In this document: positions 10,864 through 19,754 of the stretch, in pieces
How positions within the stretch are numbered: position 1 is the stretch's first letter
Layout of the letters: each line of letters begins with the position of its first letter
Origin: Epulopiscium sp. Nele67-Bin004
GTDB taxonomy: Bacteria; Bacillota_A; Clostridia; Lachnospirales; Cellulosilyticaceae
Direction of reading: 5' to 3'
Length of the DNA stretch: 26,794 nt
Assembly (NCBI GenBank): GCA_002007315.1
Contig: LNZQ01000209.1
Span: 1 to 26,794 of the forward strand
Program-made: the position numbers and the translations under genes
The notes under the pieces: model-generated
Databases searched by the model: none
Seen by the model: only the letters and a program-made list of their open reading frames with translations
What the model was told of the DNA's origin: nothing

Positions 10864-12027
10864 TTATATAATCCCTGCAACAAACCCCGCAAGGAAAATC
10901 GAAATTATCCCAGTTATAAACCCTGCAGTTATCATATTAGGTCGCAAATAGTTTTCAAGAATTTCAACTTCTTTTTCATCTTTCCCTATTGCTTGTGCAA
11001 CCTCGTTTGACATAAACATAGTTGTTGGGAATCCAAACATACAAGTCAAACACATACATATAGCCATACATTCTTCAACTTTAAATATACGTCCAACTAC
11101 TACGCCAGACACGCATGCACCAAACACCCCAACGCCCAAAACTACAGCTAGTGGTATCAACAGCTCAAACAAATCATTTGGTGTTGCATTAGCCAAGTTT
11201 GAGAAAATCATAAGCGTACAAACAAATAACATAAACCCATATGATTTCGTGTTTTCAAGTGCATTTTTTTCAAGGAAACCAAGTTCTGTAAATATCGTAC
11301 CATAAACTAATGCAATTACGATATAGCTGATAGCACCGTTCATTGCAGCTGATGTGTAATACGCAAAAATTGTAACAAGCCCTAATTTAGCCATCGTCAT
11401 AGATGGTCTTTCAAAATCATCAGGCAGTTGCAATGGTTTACGTTTTTGAGTTCCTGTTGCATCAATAGTTTCAGACTTTAATGGTTGTTTACTTGCATCA
11501 CTAGCTAAATATTTTCTAGCTGCAATTTTTAGCAAATATGACGCTGTTGGTATACCAACAAAAGTTTGACACACAAGCATTAATACAACAAATAGTGCCA
11601 GTTGGTCTTTACCAAGCTCTGTTAATGCTGTTGTCATAACGATTGACGCTGTTGTGCTACCTGAAAATATAGGTGCTCCAGCAAGTGCCAAATCTCTACC
11701 GATAATAAATTGTCCAATAAGATATACGCCAGCAGTTGCAAAAGTAACAGTTAAAGTAGCGATAACTACTGTTTTCCACTGTTGTTTTAGCGACTCAAAA
11801 TCTAGCATGTTACCCATACCTGTAAGCAAAATTCCTACCAAAATGCTTGCGATAGGTAAAATTGCTGCACTATCAAATATTTCAGGTGGTAGCCCAAACC
11901 AAAATCCTAATAGTAGTGTAATCCCAACGACAAATACTGCCGAAAATGTTGCTTTAGTTTTTAGTGCTACATACTCGCCAAATGTAAATATAAAAGCGAA
12001 TATAGTAAATGCCACTATACCTGGCAT
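10864..12027 (-). CDS. Polytopic membrane protein, putative transporter
   Basis: A 387-residue, very hydrophobic protein with roughly 10-11 membrane segments in two halves. They are separated by a charged cytosolic loop (about 165-205, KIAARKYLASDASKQPLKSE...). Features that look conserved include a Gly/Ser/Thr-rich re-entrant-like stretch GAPIFSGSTTASIVM (about 114-128) in the first half and CLTCMFGFPTTMFM in the second. This inverted-repeat-like layout suggests a secondary transporter of the anion/cation symporter type. I recall similar uncharacterised proteins in Clostridia, but no named family or substrate can be given. GGAGGGG lies 6-7 bases upstream of the ATG. It is 12 bases downstream of the cyclophilin gene and shares its promoter. 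Confidence 0.8.
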   Translation of the reverse strand: MPGIVAFTIFAFIFTFGEYVALKTKATFSAVFVVGITLLLGFWFGLPPEIFDSAAILPIASILVGILLTGMGNMLDFESLKQQWKTVVIATLTVTFATAGVYLIGQFIIGRDLALAGAPIFSGSTTASIVMTTALTELGKDQLALFVVLMLVCQTFVGIPTASYLLKIAARKYLASDASKQPLKSETIDATGTQKRKPLQLPDDFERPSMTMAKLGLVTIFAYYTSAAMNGAISYIVIALVYGTIFTELGFLEKNALENTKSYGFMLFVCTLMIFSNLANATPNDLFELLIPLAVVLGVGVFGACVSGVVVGRIFKVEECMAICMCLTCMFGFPTTMFMSNEVAQAIGKDEKEVEILENYLRPNMITAGFITGIISIFLAGFVAGII

Positions 12028-12787: not shown

Positions 12788-12816
12788 TTGACAGCTCATA
12801 GTATTAATAATATAAT
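12788..12816 (+). promoter_or_regulatory. Consensus sigma-A promoter for the MoxR/VWA operon
   Basis: TTGACA (12788-12793), a 17-base spacer (12794-12810) and TATAAT (12811-12816): both hexamers perfect. The ATG at 12849 lies 32 bases beyond, preceded by AGGAG. This predicts strong expression unless repressed. Confidence 0.88.
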
Positions 12817-12848
12817 CTATATAATTATAAATAGATAGGAGAATTGAA

Positions 12849-14066
12849 ATGTCAAGTAAAGTAATAGTATCACTAAATAAGGCTGAAAAAATAATATATA
12901 CACAAATTATTGGACAGTTATTATACAACTTGCCTGCATCGGTAGTTTATATAGAAGGAATTATGGGAATAGGTAAATCACAAAAAATTGAGCAACTTAA
13001 ACAACAATTACAACAGTATACTAATAACCACCCAGACTTAGAAGATGGTGAGTGGGGGTTTGTTGATATGCGTGTTGCAGGATTTACAGGGTCAGACTTG
13101 CAAGGTATTCCAAGCATCGAAAAAGATGGAAAAGAAGCTGTTTTAAGATGGATTAAAGATGTAACGTTGCCTAGGCATACAAGTAAGCACCCTTATGGGA
13201 TTATTTTTTTAGATGAAATTAACCAAGTTGAAGATAACTCAGTTCGTTCTGTTTTGTATCAGTTTTTACTAGACAAAAAAATGAATGATTATGAACTTCC
13301 AGATGGCTGGTTCATTGTTGCAGCAGGAAATCGTGAGGAAGATGGAGGAGTATACAATAGATTGCTTGCCCCTATTCGTGATCGTATAATGATTATAGAA
13401 GTTGAGCCAAATATAAAAGAATGGATAGATTGGGCTAGGCAAACAAAAGTACATCCAGCAGTTGTTTCAGCTGTTGATTTGTTTCAAGAAGATATTTTTC
13501 ACACATATAGTCCAGATGTTGAAATGGAAGGTGACTCTGATGGTACAAACTACGTATTTTCAACACCACGTTCGTTGTCGTTTGCATCAGATAAAATTAA
13601 GCTTTATGAACAACTTAAAAATAATGAAGATATAACTCTGGAAATAGAAGATTTGGAAGTTATGTTGCGTGGATTACTTGGGAATGTTGTTGGGAGAACG
13701 CTATGCACATTTTATAAACAAACAGGAAGTATCCCTATTGAGCAAATTAAAGCTGCAAAATGGAAAGACGGTAAAAGTAGCATTATAAAGGAACATAAAC
13801 TACAAAAATTGTCAACAGACAACGTTGTATATTTAACAAATTTAGCGGTATATCCGCAAACAGAAAACGAGCTAATTATAACACGTAATATAGTATATTT
13901 GTTGGCATACAATTCAAGTTATGCATCATCTATAAACTTAATAATTAATACGCTTACTCCAGACCAACGACTTGAAATCAACACTCATGCTATACACAAC
14001 TCAAACGTTAGCTTGATTGATTTGGCACAAACTATTGCCGATGAAACAACAAAAGCTTTGAAATAA
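12849..14066 (+). CDS. MoxR-type AAA+ ATPase
   Basis: AAA+ ATPase of the MoxR/dynein-like class; members work with VWA proteins to remodel or insert metal into protein complexes. The 405 residues show Walker A GIMGIGKS (37-44), an insert with AGFTGSDLQGIPS (77-89), Walker B IIFLDEIN (118-125), sensor 1 AAGNREED (158-165), arginine finger region APIRDRI (174-180) and sensor 2 STPRSLSFA (238-246). The C-terminal lid (about 250-405) is unlike RavA and I do not recognise it. It is first in the operon behind a consensus promoter and AGGAG. The 928-residue VWA gene starts 12 bases after its stop. ATPase identity is secure; the subfamily and substrate are unknown. Confidence 0.92.
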   Translation: MSSKVIVSLNKAEKIIYTQIIGQLLYNLPASVVYIEGIMGIGKSQKIEQLKQQLQQYTNNHPDLEDGEWGFVDMRVAGFTGSDLQGIPSIEKDGKEAVLRWIKDVTLPRHTSKHPYGIIFLDEINQVEDNSVRSVLYQFLLDKKMNDYELPDGWFIVAAGNREEDGGVYNRLLAPIRDRIMIIEVEPNIKEWIDWARQTKVHPAVVSAVDLFQEDIFHTYSPDVEMEGDSDGTNYVFSTPRSLSFASDKIKLYEQLKNNEDITLEIEDLEVMLRGLLGNVVGRTLCTFYKQTGSIPIEQIKAAKWKDGKSSIIKEHKLQKLSTDNVVYLTNLAVYPQTENELIITRNIVYLLAYNSSYASSINLIINTLTPDQRLEINTHAIHNSNVSLIDLAQTIADETTKALK

Positions 14067-14078
14067 GGGGGGTATACT

Positions 14079-16865
14079 ATGTTTGATTTATTTGAACAGC
14101 TGGAGGAGGCAACAAAGAGCCAACAAGAGGAAGCAAAAAAAGAAGTTGCCACTAGAAAACTTGAAAATATGTCTGCTATGGAACGTGCGACAACAAAAAG
14201 TTATAACGGAGTTGTTGTGCAAGAAAAAGATATAAGCGAATTTATTGTCACATCTGCAATGGAAATTGCCCCGCATTTATCCCCTATATTTTTGCGTGAT
14301 AAAGAATACAACAAAAATTTGCCTCATACAGTAACGTTATCATCGGGTAAAATCTCGTTTGGTAGAGGAATAACGACCCAACAAGCAAATGAAAATATTT
14401 TTGATATGCTGCATACATCACTTATGGCTATAGTTGGGGGGTATCTTGAAATACGAATGCCCGAAAATATTTTTCTTGATACAACAATGAGGCAATTGTA
14501 TGTGTATTGCACAAGATATTTGTATGCTACGGGGGTTGCATATACTCTTATAAATTCGCCATATGCATTGGGGATAAGCGAAAATAAAATGCCTGCAATA
14601 GCTAACAAACATTCAAAAAAATATTTAAAAGACGTTGATTATGTTATTGCAAATCTTGCTATGAATGTAGATAAGACAGATTTAAAACAGACGATTGCTA
14701 ATGCAGTGCAAAAATTTGAGGATAGGGGCGAATATTTTATAGTTCCGATAAAATACAAATCAAGTTCGCATGATATTATAATAAGGAAGAAAAGCCTACA
14801 AGTTATATTTATGCCTGACCAAAGTTTTGAACAGCAACTGCAAGTTGTAACTGATAAGCTGGAGAACTTATATGAGGAAAAAGAACAGTTGCAAAAAGCA
14901 GTTGATACTAAAAATGAGCAAAAGCAAAATAACCCGAAAGCAACACAGGCTCAAAAAGATTTGATAGAAAAATATTTGTTATCCAAAAAGGCTTGGAAAA
15001 ACGTTAAATCCAACATATCAAGCGACATATCAGAAGTTGATGCAAAGCAAGTGCATACAACTTTACTGCAATCGCTACAAAATAATTTGGATAACCCTAA
15101 TGTGGTTGTTGTGCTAGATAAATATAACGAGCTTGAACCTATATTTTTTGATGGAACAACAAAAAGTGTATTAAACTTGCTAAAATTGTTGATGCATGCG
15201 GTATACGCAACAACAGGGGACGACTTTAGTGGTATAGTTGATATTTTGGAACCACCAACAAATTATGACTCTATACCGTTATATGCAATAAAACAAGTGT
15301 ACAACCAAAATTATGACCAAATGAGCATGGACTTACTTGCAAATAAAGTTATAGATATTGGTGTAGATAAAGTTAGTAAAAGTACGTTACGTTCACTTGT
15401 TGCTAAGTTTAAAAAGTCACCAGCTGATTTTTTAGGCAATTTGCAAAATACCGATAAAAATCTAGCATTTGAATATTATTTATCGCCTGAATATTGGTCA
15501 CTCATAAGTGATGTGTGTTGCCCGATATTGTTAGACGATGAAACGTATAACAAGTTATTTGACGATATGTATAAAATTGTATCTACGAATATGCAATTTA
15601 GAAGTTTAAACACTTTGTTTGATGAGTTGTGTGAGTTACTAAATCCTGTTACCCCTGAGGAAAAGTATGTTATGATGGTGAGCGTGATTAAGGCGTATAC
15701 AGTATCAACAAACTTAGACACGTCACCCCTAAACTTAAATACCGAAACAGGAACGAGAGGTAATTTTTTTGTTACACCTGATAGTTATGATGATATACCA
15801 TTTACAGCGTTGTTAAATATGTTAAAAGAGGCGAATGTGCAAATAAGTCCAATTGGGAATATTGTGACACAATATCAAAATTTATCGGCAAATATTCGCT
15901 TAACGATACTTGCTAACTTTAAAGCTGACCCCAAAAAATACATTTTGGATATGACACAAAATAATGAAACAGAGCAAGGGAAAATAGAGGGGCTTGAGTC
16001 CCAAATAGATGATTTAACAAACCAACTTAATCAATTACAACAGCAACAATCAGACACTTCAGATATAGATGAATTTGATGCTAATATCGGAAATGTTCTT
16101 AGTGCTGATATGACAAAAAATGAATTTACAACTTTGGTTGAAGATTTACAAAAAACAGCACAAATACTCCAAGCAAAAGGAATTTCGGTCGATGGTTTAT
16201 CTACACTGTTAGATAGAACTCTCGATAGTTTGTATAACACAAAGCCAACTTTATACCAACAAATTTCGGCATTAGTACGAACAATGAAACCATCAAACCA
16301 ACCGACTTTTTCAAGACCAAATAAAAAGTATTTGTCTAGTGGATTTATATTGCCTACTAATTCGGCTAAATCATACAAAAACGACTTAGAGGGTTTTAGT
16401 ATATTTTTGGATAGTTCGGGTTCAATGAGTTTTGATGACGTAAAAATTTGTATTTCATTAATCGCATCTATGGAAAAACAATTGCCTAGAAAAGGTGAGT
16501 ATTTAGAATTTAACTCTGAGATACTTCCTTTAAAAGTACGAAATGGCAAATTAGTTGAAATGCCAAAGTCAACAGGGGGTACGGATATTAGAACAGTTAT
16601 TAATCATTGCAAATATGATACAAAAAATAATGGAAAAATGTTACGTATTATAATATCAGACGGTGGATTTTGTTGGAACACACTTATTGATTTTGCAAAC
16701 GAAAATAAGCGTGAAAAAATTGTTGTTATACTAACAGATAATGACAGCTATTTTATAACTAACAGAAAAAAAGAGCAGTTTTTAAGCAGTGGCAGAAATA
16801 GAACGATGATAATAGAGGCACAGCCGTCTAAAGATAAATTGTCAACAAAAGTTTGGCGAAAGTAG
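14079..16865 (+). CDS. Large protein with C-terminal VWA domain (MoxR partner)
   Basis: A 928-residue soluble protein without signal peptide or membrane helices. Residues 1-250 are of unrecognised fold. Residues 251-315 are a likely coiled coil (EQQLQVVTDKLENLYEEKEQ...), 316-625 are alpha-helical and unrecognised, and 632-660 form a second Gln/Glu-rich coiled coil. The C-terminus (about 770-928) is a VWA-like domain with an intact metal-ion-dependent adhesion site: DSSGS (Asp778, Ser780, Ser782), TGGTD (Thr835) and SDGG (Asp861). The latter resembles the VWA-like domain of DUF2201 proteins encoded beside MoxR ATPases. ViaA, partner of RavA, has the same VWA-at-the-end design, but this protein is about twice its size. 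GGGG precedes the ATG; the next gene follows after 9 bases. Confidence 0.87.
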   Translation: MFDLFEQLEEATKSQQEEAKKEVATRKLENMSAMERATTKSYNGVVVQEKDISEFIVTSAMEIAPHLSPIFLRDKEYNKNLPHTVTLSSGKISFGRGITTQQANENIFDMLHTSLMAIVGGYLEIRMPENIFLDTTMRQLYVYCTRYLYATGVAYTLINSPYALGISENKMPAIANKHSKKYLKDVDYVIANLAMNVDKTDLKQTIANAVQKFEDRGEYFIVPIKYKSSSHDIIIRKKSLQVIFMPDQSFEQQLQVVTDKLENLYEEKEQLQKAVDTKNEQKQNNPKATQAQKDLIEKYLLSKKAWKNVKSNISSDISEVDAKQVHTTLLQSLQNNLDNPNVVVVLDKYNELEPIFFDGTTKSVLNLLKLLMHAVYATTGDDFSGIVDILEPPTNYDSIPLYAIKQVYNQNYDQMSMDLLANKVIDIGVDKVSKSTLRSLVAKFKKSPADFLGNLQNTDKNLAFEYYLSPEYWSLISDVCCPILLDDETYNKLFDDMYKIVSTNMQFRSLNTLFDELCELLNPVTPEEKYVMMVSVIKAYTVSTNLDTSPLNLNTETGTRGNFFVTPDSYDDIPFTALLNMLKEANVQISPIGNIVTQYQNLSANIRLTILANFKADPKKYILDMTQNNETEQGKIEGLESQIDDLTNQLNQLQQQQSDTSDIDEFDANIGNVLSADMTKNEFTTLVEDLQKTAQILQAKGISVDGLSTLLDRTLDSLYNTKPTLYQQISALVRTMKPSNQPTFSRPNKKYLSSGFILPTNSAKSYKNDLEGFSIFLDSSGSMSFDDVKICISLIASMEKQLPRKGEYLEFNSEILPLKVRNGKLVEMPKSTGGTDIRTVINHCKYDTKNNGKMLRIIISDGGFCWNTLIDFANENKREKIVVILTDNDSYFITNRKKEQFLSSGRNRTMIIEAQPSKDKLSTKVWRK

Positions 16866-16874
16866 GAGAAGATT

Positions 16875-17957
16875 ATGCTAAAAATTTTTAATACAAAATG
16901 TATAAAGCATTTAAAAGAAAATTATATAAAGTATGCACCAAGTTTAAAAGTTGCATTTGTATCAGATGACGATGTAAAGAAGAAATTGGAGCTACAAGAC
17001 GGCTTAACAATAGTTCAAACTAAACGTTGTTTAATTGCATATATTAACAATCCCAAGTCGTTTAAAGATAATGTATTTTATGATGCTATGTTAGAACAGC
17101 TTGAGAAATTGCCTACAGGTAACTACACCCCTAAGTTGCCGTTATCTATATACACTCCAACATATAATATTGAGATGCAAAATTTTGCTGATAGTATGCA
17201 TTTTAGTTGCTTTTTTGACTTGAATGTAGAAACAAAAAATATTGAAGTAACTAGAGTTGTATATAATGTTGAGGCTAGAAATGCAAAACCACATGAGTGG
17301 GCATTGACTGCGGACGGGCATTTTGAACCAGCTATACAAAATCTAAAAGTTAAATATTATATTGATAGTTATTATGACGATCAATCAACAGAGGCATACC
17401 CTTTTGAAGTTGACGAACAAAGCAATATAATTATAGATGGTAAGCTGATAATAGCAGGAAAGACACCACCAACTTGTTATTTAAACAATCTTTATGTTAA
17501 ACTTTCTAAAGAGCCAACGCAAATAATGTGCACATTTAATACTGTGCAACGTCGTCAACTACAAATAGGGGCAAACTATACCGACCTCACCCCAGATAAA
17601 GTTGTGAGTGAGTCGCCTGCAATTTTTGTTGATGATGAATATTTTTTATTTGGGACAAAAATGCCTAAAAAAGAACAAATTGATAGAGGACTACCTGAAC
17701 AAAAAACGTATTATTACAACTTTAAGTTTGCTGAGGACCAATTTGCTTTATCAGTGTTAGGACTAGTGTTGTATGGATTTTCTCTTGGTGAAGTTATAAA
17801 ATATATAGAAGAACCATATGAAGAAAAATCTATAAATAAAAACGTTGTGAATTGGGTAAAAAAATTGGCAAGCATAAATTCTAATACTTTTATTTATATG
17901 AAAGAAAGACAAAATGAATATTTAGCGGAAACTATTATTAGATGTAGGAGGGACTAA
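16875..17957 (+). CDS. Unknown protein, paralogue A of a tandem pair
   Basis: No family recognised. The product has 360 residues, is predicted soluble, and is rich in Tyr, Asn and Lys with alternating beta-type segments and no signal peptide. It is clearly related to the next gene product. Both start MLxIF and have NYxxYAxxLK near residue 20, YTPxLP near 100, EWxLxxxGxFEP in the middle and DKVVSES before the C-terminal block. That block is TYYYNFKFAEDQFALSVLGLVLYGFSLGE here. The strongest conservation is this C-terminal block, which may be the shared functional module. Its TAA overlaps the ATG of paralogue B by one base (TAATG), so the pair is translationally coupled. AGGAGA precedes its own ATG. 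Its place in the MoxR operon suggests a substrate or adaptor of the ATPase (inference). Confidence 0.82.
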   Translation: MLKIFNTKCIKHLKENYIKYAPSLKVAFVSDDDVKKKLELQDGLTIVQTKRCLIAYINNPKSFKDNVFYDAMLEQLEKLPTGNYTPKLPLSIYTPTYNIEMQNFADSMHFSCFFDLNVETKNIEVTRVVYNVEARNAKPHEWALTADGHFEPAIQNLKVKYYIDSYYDDQSTEAYPFEVDEQSNIIIDGKLIIAGKTPPTCYLNNLYVKLSKEPTQIMCTFNTVQRRQLQIGANYTDLTPDKVVSESPAIFVDDEYFLFGTKMPKKEQIDRGLPEQKTYYYNFKFAEDQFALSVLGLVLYGFSLGEVIKYIEEPYEEKSINKNVVNWVKKLASINSNTFIYMKERQNEYLAETIIRCRRD

Positions 17958-18976
17958 TGTTAACAATATTTGAAAATTCAAGATTAAAGCCGATTATTGA
18001 CAACTATATGTTTTATGCTAAAGGGCTAAAAATAGTGTTAGATGAACAAGATTCATCTTATCGTGCACAATGTAAGTTGGAAGTTTCGGTAAGTGAGGAC
18101 AAAAAATATTTGGTGGTACGTATTATAAACCCAAGCAATTTTAATGCTTACAACACTCCAAATTTTTCTGACGTGCTTGATAACTTTCCAAAAGAAGAAG
18201 AACCATATACGCCAGAATTGCCATCTTCATATCATAATGTATCGTATAAGTTTAGATTAATTGATAAATATCCTGATAAAAAACCAAGGTGTAACTCTTT
18301 TCATTATGAAATATTAGATAACGGAGATATAGAGCCGACTAGTTATTTTATGATAAATAAAGTTGATGAATGGGTATTAAACGTAGCAGGAACTTTTGAA
18401 CCAACAAATCGCAACTGCAAAATAGTATTTCATCTAAAGACAGATCGATATACTGATTGGAAAAATCTCAAAATAAATAAAGTTGGGGACATAATTTCTA
18501 GTAAAATACCGCTTGTTAAAACTGACTATGAACCTACGTACAGACTAAACAAAAAAATGGTTAAGCGTACGAAATGTGGATCAAAACTAGTATGCAAAAA
18601 AACTAGCATATCAGAGTATTATTTGCAAGAAGGTAAAAGTGTATTTGATTTAACATTTGATAAAGTTGTAAGTGAGTCACAAATATTACTCATTGGCAAC
18701 AGAAGTTTTATGGGAATAGAAATGTCGGAAGAAGAAAAGATAGAACGAGAACTAAAAACGACTAAAACATACTATTTTAAGTTTAAACTTATCGAGGATA
18801 GGTTGCCATTATCAATATTGTCACTAGTGTTTAACGGTGCAACTTTGGGGGAAGCGTTTTATAAGCTTGATGAGTTTTATGGACCAAAGTTTGGAAGAAC
18901 AAAAATAGATAGCAATAAGTTTATTGGGGGTTGTGGATATAACAATTTGCCAGAATACACAGTAAAAAGCGTATAA
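17957..18976 (+). CDS. Unknown protein, paralogue B of a tandem pair
   Basis: A 339-residue homologue of the preceding protein. Shared blocks: N-terminal MLTIFENSRLKPIIDNYMFYA, YTPELP, EWVLNVAGTFEP, DKVVSES and TYYFKFKLIEDRLPLSILSLV followed by GATLGE. Between the blocks the two have diverged strongly, indicating an old duplication rather than a recent copy. B lacks A's C-terminal tail (WVKKLASINSN...) and ends with a different short tail containing GGCGYNN. AGGAGGG upstream of the ATG lies inside gene A, and the start overlaps the stop of A. No signal peptide, membrane segment or known catalytic motif is visible. Retention of two coupled paralogues suggests a heteromer or two alternative clients (inference). 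Confidence 0.82.
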   Translation: MLTIFENSRLKPIIDNYMFYAKGLKIVLDEQDSSYRAQCKLEVSVSEDKKYLVVRIINPSNFNAYNTPNFSDVLDNFPKEEEPYTPELPSSYHNVSYKFRLIDKYPDKKPRCNSFHYEILDNGDIEPTSYFMINKVDEWVLNVAGTFEPTNRNCKIVFHLKTDRYTDWKNLKINKVGDIISSKIPLVKTDYEPTYRLNKKMVKRTKCGSKLVCKKTSISEYYLQEGKSVFDLTFDKVVSESQILLIGNRSFMGIEMSEEEKIERELKTTKTYYFKFKLIEDRLPLSILSLVFNGATLGEAFYKLDEFYGPKFGRTKIDSNKFIGGCGYNNLPEYTVKSV

Positions 18977-18991
18977 TATAAGGAGAAAATT

Positions 18992-19705
18992 ATGCAAGAA
19001 ATTAAATTGCGAAATAGAAATGAAATAACTAGATCACTTGCCGAGCTTGGTATAGATATAAAAAAGAAAGTAGCTAGATCGGGATTTGAAAGTCTAAAAG
19101 GTATTGAGGCGTTACTTATGTACACGATTACAAATGCTGATTATTTTAGTGTAACTGCTGATAGAAATACGCCTCCTAAAGATGCCGATAAATTCATGAT
19201 ACAACTCGAAACGTTTATTAACACTTCTCTTGAAGGGCGTGCATCAGTTTTTGAAACGTCATCAGTTCCGCAAGTGCTTGGATATGGAGTTTATGTTAAC
19301 AACTATGTGTCTAATAATTCGGCTAATTTTAAGTATATATACGGAATTTCTCAATTGTTATTGCCAAAACATATGATTGATGAACTGGGTGATATTTCGA
19401 GGAAAAGTATAACAGAAGTTATTGCAAATTTAGATGTTGAAACTATACAAAGCCTTGTAGGTATTGAGGGGCAAGTGCCCACTATTTATGAGGTGACGAT
19501 ACGTACAAATGAAGAATCAAGAGAATTTGCAACTGATAAATTTGCTTGTTATGCAACAGATGGACAAATTTTAATTATTTTTCCAGTAGATGAAATGAAT
19601 GAAACCAGCGAGCTTAGAGGAGCACATATAAATTTAAAAACGGGAGAAAAAAAGTTTATTGAGTCACAAATGGAGCTACTAGGGACGCTGAAACTAATCT
19701 TATAA
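18992..19705 (+). CDS. Unknown protein, last gene of the MoxR/VWA operon
   Basis: A 237-residue, mostly soluble protein of unrecognised family. The N-terminal third is helical and charged (IKLRNRNEITRSLAELGIDIKKKV), the rest mixed alpha/beta. No catalytic or metal-binding motif stands out, and it shows no clear similarity to the two paralogues. AAGGAGA lies 6-7 bases before the ATG, 15 bases after paralogue B. The operon terminator starts about 20 bases after its stop, so it is the final cistron. Base composition matches its neighbours. Confidence 0.78.
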   Translation: MQEIKLRNRNEITRSLAELGIDIKKKVARSGFESLKGIEALLMYTITNADYFSVTADRNTPPKDADKFMIQLETFINTSLEGRASVFETSSVPQVLGYGVYVNNYVSNNSANFKYIYGISQLLLPKHMIDELGDISRKSITEVIANLDVETIQSLVGIEGQVPTIYEVTIRTNEESREFATDKFACYATDGQILIIFPVDEMNETSELRGAHINLKTGEKKFIESQMELLGTLKLIL

Positions 19706-19723
19706 TAACTTAAATTGTAATTC

Positions 19724-19754
19724 AAAGCAACCTGATAATTTGGGTTGCTTTTTT
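19724..19754 (+). terminator. Rho-independent terminator of the MoxR/VWA operon
   Basis: AAAGCAACC (19724-19732) pairs with GGTTGCTTT (19743-19751) over a 10-base loop and runs into six T's (19749-19754). It separates this operon from the convergent acetyltransferase gene, whose stop is 2 bases further on. Confidence 0.88.

Follow-up and report, generated by a model that had tools for sequence, protein, structure and literature searches.

Operon layout and chromosomal setting

The DNA analysed is a stretch of 26,794 nt from Epulopiscium sp. Nele67-Bin004 (hereafter the window), which carries one transcription unit on its forward strand at positions 12788–19751, made up of a promoter, five tightly spaced co-directional genes, and a terminator. 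The promoter is of the sigma-70 type and perfect (TTGACA-17-TATAAT, 12/12; 12788–12816). Gene 1 (12849–14066) encodes a MoxR-type AAA+ ATPase of 405 aa, recognised by its catalytic motifs, and gene 2 (14079–16865) encodes a 928-aa protein in which alignment identifies a C-terminal vWA domain with an intact MIDAS. Genes 3 (16875–17957) and 4 (17957–18976) encode the tandem paralogues P3 (360 aa) and P4 (339 aa), which share 30% identity; the start of P4 overlaps the stop of P3 by 1 nt, and no homologue of P3 was found outside the window. Gene 5 (18992–19705) encodes P5, a 237-aa protein with no family match. An intrinsic terminator with a 12-bp stem, a 4-nt loop, and a T-rich tail closes the unit (19724–19751). 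The first-pass annotation, made from the sequence alone, had described a consensus promoter, five close co-directional genes, a terminator, a MoxR ATPase with a VWA partner, and two tandem paralogues, all of which are confirmed here. It had also stated that no known client accompanies the pair, and none was found beside it in the window.

Besides the operon, the window contains era, recO, polA, coaE, guaB, guaA, glyS, dnaG, rpoD, and genes for a lytic transglycosylase, a family-5 solute-binding protein, a 387-aa membrane-type protein, a cyclophilin, a GNAT protein, a polysaccharide deacetylase, and one more. Pfam or NCBIfam backs recO, polA, coaE, dnaG, the transglycosylase, the solute-binding protein, the cyclophilin, the GNAT protein, and the deacetylase; era is the name given to a GTPase/KH protein with support from the same databases, while guaA, guaB, glyS, and rpoD are presumed identities named by sequence. 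The hydrophobic 387-aa membrane-type protein is encoded on the opposite strand (10864–12027). NCBIfam does not match it, nor does Pfam at E ≤ 1, and 19 of 391 sampled genomes encode relatives with 27–39% identity. The window yielded no tRNA and no Rfam match at the gathering threshold, and no integrase was present among its genes scanned against Pfam. In GC content, base composition, and codon usage, the operon resembles the genes that flank it, and a compositional island is not supported.

Between positions 1153 and 22573, polA, coaE, guaB, guaA, and the operon sit between recO and glyS. The first-pass annotation had the operon in a block that interrupts conserved housekeeping synteny. This idea is weak because, among the four relatives with more than 10 kb upstream, era, recO, and glyS are adjacent in L051 and not in L052–L054; the block between recO and glyS also carries housekeeping genes. 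The best identity listed for the GlyS of the window was 76% (391 genomes sampled, one class), and an empty-site comparison would have needed a closer relative than any among the matches listed for glyS and the membrane-protein gene.

The MoxR-type ATPase and its family

The ATPase has an intact set of catalytic motifs, namely Walker A (EGIMGIGKS), Walker B (FLDEINQ), sensor 1 (AGNR), the Arg-finger region (RDR), and sensor 2 (TPRS). In all 12 family ATPases, Walker A GxxGxGK, Walker B DE, the sensor 1 N, RxR, and the sensor 2 R are invariant. Pfam matches of the window protein are below threshold (AAA, 16.4 bits against a cut-off of 21.2; AAA_5, 13.1 bits against 22), and AAA_5 matches 5/12 of the family at E ≤ 0.01. 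Among PHROGs, the ATPase matches phrog_1297 (E = 2.5e-51).

A search of 5.8 billion proteins returned 389 ATPase matches, the best 120 of which comprise the query, 11 relatives scoring 236–301 bits, and other proteins, beginning with the next match at 109 bits. These sequences appear as a small, well supported clade of at least 12 among the database matches listed; 12 is a lower bound because the ATPase of the related locus L002 (see below) is absent from those matches. A tree was built from 56 chosen rows, namely the 12 family proteins, L002, 34 of the 108 other listed hits, seven proteins from other genomes, and two from phages; RavA, NorQ, and CbbQ themselves were left out. Family support was 100/100, and the neighbours were the two included phage ATPases (95/91), the only phage rows in the tree, both of which drew the program's long-branch warning. 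An ATPase relative occurs in 631 of 50,697 phage records, every one with less than 60% identity, and none of the 56 candidate stretches that two peptide patterns picked out in viral contigs was confirmed as a relative. In the portions of the open-licence PMC literature available, no description of this ATPase clade was recognised.

Related loci and distribution

Scanning 84,980 species genomes with peptide patterns located three related loci (L001, L002, and L003) in two Clostridia MAGs (G001 and G002). In all three, the ATPase gene and the vWA gene are followed by genes X and Y, in this order and co-directional. Gene Y is cut by the contig end in L001 and L002; L003 lacks the start of the ATPase and is the only locus to show a further gene, Z. 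The related pairs match phrog_1297 and phrog_1314, in pieces for the L001 vWA protein and the L003 ATPase. The products of X, Y, and Z matched no family above cut-off, PHROGs weakly (best E = 0.00064), and PADLOC not at all at E ≤ 0.001. The recurrent five-gene block that the first-pass annotation had proposed as a check was not found: the pair recurs in 3/3 related loci, whereas P3–P5 do not.

Three in-frame stops lie in the L001 vWA frame (L001:4584–6548) and one in the L003 ATPase frame (L003:1–1176), and gene X of L001 (L001:6568–7273) is split over two frames. These are either decaying copies or assembly errors. The two MAGs each hold a second MoxR–vWA pair (L007 in G001, L008 in G002) with a 486-aa ATPase, and the vWA protein of this second pair carries HxxxHxxxxH without the Glu.

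With an ATPase profile, matches at E ≤ 1e-30 were found in 4 of 295 order-level genomes, two of these being distant relatives only. At E ≤ 1e-40, matches were obtained in 2/48 genomes from the family of G002 and in 0/225 from the order of G582.

The vWA protein

The 928-aa protein consists of an N-terminal region without HExxH, a Gln-rich stretch before the last third, and the C-terminal vWA domain, which is 34.5% identical to that of L002 and 38.1% to that of L003. Its MIDAS residues (D778, S780, S782, T835, and D861) are intact, and are invariant both among the window, L002, and L003 and across a ten-protein alignment that includes DUF2201 types and one phage protein. As a whole query against the protein database, the protein retrieved only itself among 7,995 candidates scored; its relatives in L001–L003 nonetheless exist.

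Among PHROGs, the protein matches phrog_1314 (E = 1.1e-15) from profile position 132, and in the window, L002, and L003 alike the match does not extend into the peptidase-like domain. The vWA proteins of phages SSBI34 and MIF8, of plasmid pSYSA, and of Clostridia DUF2201 pairs fall into this family as well. It is labelled 'HNH endonuclease', yet every matching protein examined is a vWA protein, and several carry a metallopeptidase motif; the label is likely a mis-annotation.

From a MAFFT alignment, we propose that residues 44–200 (14208–14678) form a metallopeptidase domain of the DUF2201_N-like type that has degenerated. The vWA proteins of the window, L002, and L003 contain no HExxH at any position. 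In the alignment columns of HExxHxxxxH, the window reads M-A-I-V-G-G-Y-L-E-I, while L001, L002, and L003 read K/R-E-F-T-Q-V-L-x-G-F; the motif is lost in all three related loci and is absent from the window. Pairwise, the N-terminus of the window is borderline against its relatives (at best, 54 of 1000 shuffles scored as high, against L003). Comparison of the window or L002/L003 N-termini with DUF2201 proteins by hhalign gave no support, the 928-aa protein has no Pfam match to DUF2201 (PF13203/PF09967) at E ≤ 1, and PF09967 stays below its cut-off of 26.4 bits in L002 and L003 (13.1 and 13.5 bits). A model of the N-terminus from a 10-row alignment is of low confidence (mean pLDDT 45); its order of helix, beta-hairpin, and helix is compatible with a peptidase-like fold and proves nothing. 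Judged from order and alignment, the N-termini of the window, L001–L003, and the DUF2201 types are likely the same domain.

The downstream proteins P3, P4, and P5

Consistent with the three unknown partners of the first-pass annotation, P3–P5 gave neither an above-threshold nor a convincing match in Pfam, NCBIfam, PHROGs (best E = 0.03), or PADLOC. P3 has weak thioredoxin-like matches in Pfam (E = 0.011) and NCBIfam (E = 0.043), which lie below cut-off and in separate portions of its sequence. P5 is matched by no Pfam, NCBIfam, or PADLOC entry at E ≤ 1, and its best PHROG and PDB matches have E-values of 0.18 and 0.27, respectively. Above the Pfam cut-offs, no effector, VMAP, or STAND domain was recognised in the three proteins. 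In the protein database, P3 and P4 found only themselves. Queries with P3 and P5 (P4 was not among them) gave no match in the 50,697 phage records, and P3/P4 and P5 gave none at E ≤ 1 in genomes G001 and G002, in a search run without a positive control. The structure predicted for P3 with its paralogue, from two sequences, is of low confidence (mean pLDDT 31).

No homology was detectable between P3–P5 and X, Y, and Z by hhalign or shuffled Smith–Waterman comparison. A likeness by eye of P3/P4 to genes X and Y was rejected, with hhalign probabilities below 1% and 16 of 300 shuffles as high for the best cross pair. The apparent uniqueness of P3–P5 may in part reflect thin sampling, because the protein search was word-based, which lets distant relatives escape, and of the three proteins it covered P3 and P4.

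Interpretation of the operon

On sequence grounds, the window pair is a diverged member of the phage/plasmid-type MoxR–vWA pair that lacks the peptidase site. It probably remodels protein complexes, because described MoxR–vWA pairs do so (PMC7159879) and because its ATPase and MIDAS are intact. Our preferred explanation, for which we judge the case evenly balanced, is that the operon encodes a dedicated ATP-driven remodelling chaperone together with the substrates that it acts on. A hexameric ring of the ATPase would work with the 928-aa protein as its vWA co-chaperone, whose MIDAS-bearing domain would dock clients or the ring. The N-terminal region, probably a metallopeptidase-like domain with its catalytic site lost, could act as a non-catalytic recognition part. 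Gene order suggests that P3, P4, and P5 are most likely clients, or the complex being assembled; P3 and P4 arose by tandem duplication and may form a hetero-oligomer. P3–P5 were not found with the pair elsewhere, and the role of client or adaptor, as proposed in the first-pass annotation, therefore rests on operon position and is without comparative support.

A broader alternative, possible but doubtful in our view, is a MoxR–vWA machine of phage ancestry in which the peptidase has turned into a non-catalytic receptor and the operon-encoded partners are replaced wholesale between lineages. Uncultured Clostridia would then possess a new class of MoxR–vWA system, which may serve conflict as a modular system or assemble a paralogue-based complex.

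Less probable than our preferred explanation is an anti-phage or anti-plasmid conflict system, in which a MoxR–vWA switch holds or triggers P3–P5 as fast-turnover sensors or effectors in the manner of VMAP, iSTAND, or FtsH systems. MoxR–vWA genes with fast-evolving third components have been described as such systems (PMC7159879), and the window and L001–L003 share the pair but not the genes that follow it. The rare, patchy distribution (three loci in two genomes; 2/48; 0/225) and the in-frame stops in a pair gene of 2/3 related loci point the same way. However, the best PADLOC match of the five operon proteins has an E-value of 0.022, and none was obtained at E ≤ 0.001 for five related proteins and four other window genes tested. 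No effector domain is recognised in P3–P5, because none of them has a Pfam match above cut-off; the ATPase-first order is unlike the described VMAP-MoxR-vWA order; and the identified neighbours are mostly housekeeping genes.

We regard as unlikely a domesticated or passenger module of a phage or mobile element, that is, a chaperone pair for virion or structure assembly, taken from a phage and retained alongside three structural or accessory genes that share its origin. The position of the ATPase clade as sister to the two included phage ATPases and the 631/50,697 phage records with an ATPase relative, all below 60% identity, are consistent with such a module, as is the virion-assembly role proposed for a jumbo-phage pair (PMC7824862). 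Against it, P3 and P5 have no match in the 50,697 phage records, the best PHROG E-value for P3–P5 is 0.03, and no relative was confirmed among the 56 viral-contig candidate stretches; nor does the window show an integrase among the genes scanned against Pfam or a tRNA, and the operon matches its flanking genes in GC and codon usage. Least likely is an ordinary metallation or maturation chaperone of the NorQ–NorD, CbbQ–CbbO, or CoxD–CoxE type with P3–P5 as accessories and the client elsewhere in the genome: the general role of MoxR–vWA pairs (PMC7159879) and a reading confined to a 26,794-nt window, beyond which the client gene may lie, allow for it, but neither window protein matches such families above cut-off in Pfam or NCBIfam, and the closest relatives found are of the phage/plasmid type, in a tree without RavA, NorQ, and CbbQ.

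If the operon is a remodelling chaperone with its own substrates, client recognition could be tested directly, since a compact unit would hold the promoter, the pair, and three candidate clients on one predicted transcript. To our knowledge, clients are known for few MoxR–vWA pairs. A pair that has kept its ATPase and MIDAS and lost the peptidase would also set remodelling apart from the proteolysis proposed as a role of the phage pair. Should further loci agree, the combination of a constant pair and varying downstream genes would make it interesting as a modular system.

Comparison with described MoxR–vWA systems

RavA–ViaA, NorQ–NorD, CbbQ–CbbO, and CoxD–CoxE each combine an AAA+ MoxR ATPase with a vWA co-chaperone. 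The window shares this ATPase and co-chaperone type, but its pair has no Pfam or NCBIfam match above cut-off, the comparison being by family profiles only. Membership of the RavA, NorQ, or CbbQ families had no support from these profiles.

In ternary conflict systems, MoxR–vWA pairs with fast-evolving third components form a conflict architecture, with the gene order VMAP-MoxR-vWA (PMC7159879), and a BREX paper mentions MoxR-vWA iSTAND systems (PMC12839542). VMAP, iSTAND, and FtsH systems likewise have MoxR and vWA genes plus one or more genes that differ between loci. The window order, in contrast to that of VMAP systems, is MoxR-vWA-P3-P4-P5. A third component of the VMAP or iSTAND kind would carry a VMAP-C or inactive STAND domain; Pfam gave no match above cut-off for P3–P5.

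Bacterial MoxR and DUF2201 pairs (L044, L046–L049, and pSYSA) share with the window the gene pair, a MIDAS-bearing vWA domain, and probably an N-terminal peptidase-like domain. This pairing is usual, because a Walker A ORF adjoins 5/6 PF13203 loci (L044 and L046–L049; 56 genomes searched); by a simple motif test, L045 has none. The DUF2201 types L044, L045, L010, L047, and L048 keep HExxHxxxxH, and L046, L049, and L008 lack the Glu. The window vWA protein has no DUF2201 match at E ≤ 1. In genome G044 (L009/L044), a MoxR–DUF2201 pair with HExxH lies directly after a helicase-C-like ORF of 451–466 aa (a helicase by eye), a setting that suggests a mobile element.

By sequence, the closest relatives found are the phage/plasmid MoxR–(metallopeptidase-)vWA pairs. 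In Salmonella phage SSBI34 and in Synechocystis plasmid pSYSA, genes of phrog_1297 and phrog_1314 adjoin each other in this order; the window pair shares both families, adjacent and in the SSBI34 order, and in the tree the two phage ATPases form the sister group of its ATPase clade. In Erwinia phage MIF8 (L058), the vWA gene lies two genes from an rIIA-like annotated gene, and in phage rV5_ev147 (L026), which belongs to a different phage family, the MoxR gene is likewise two genes from an rIIA-like gene. A paper on jumbo phages describes a MoxR–vWA pair with an N-terminal metallopeptidase and proposes a role in virion assembly (PMC7824862); from this description, we infer that it corresponds to phrog_1297 and phrog_1314. 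The first-pass annotation had considered the system not obviously described, which is not supported for the pair, since its closest relatives found are of a type described for jumbo phages. The phage pair is described with an N-terminal metallopeptidase, whereas the window vWA protein lacks HExxH and is longer (928 aa, against 393 and 522 aa in two phage examples). Unlike the phage pair, the window pair lies among chromosomal genes and is accompanied by three extra genes.
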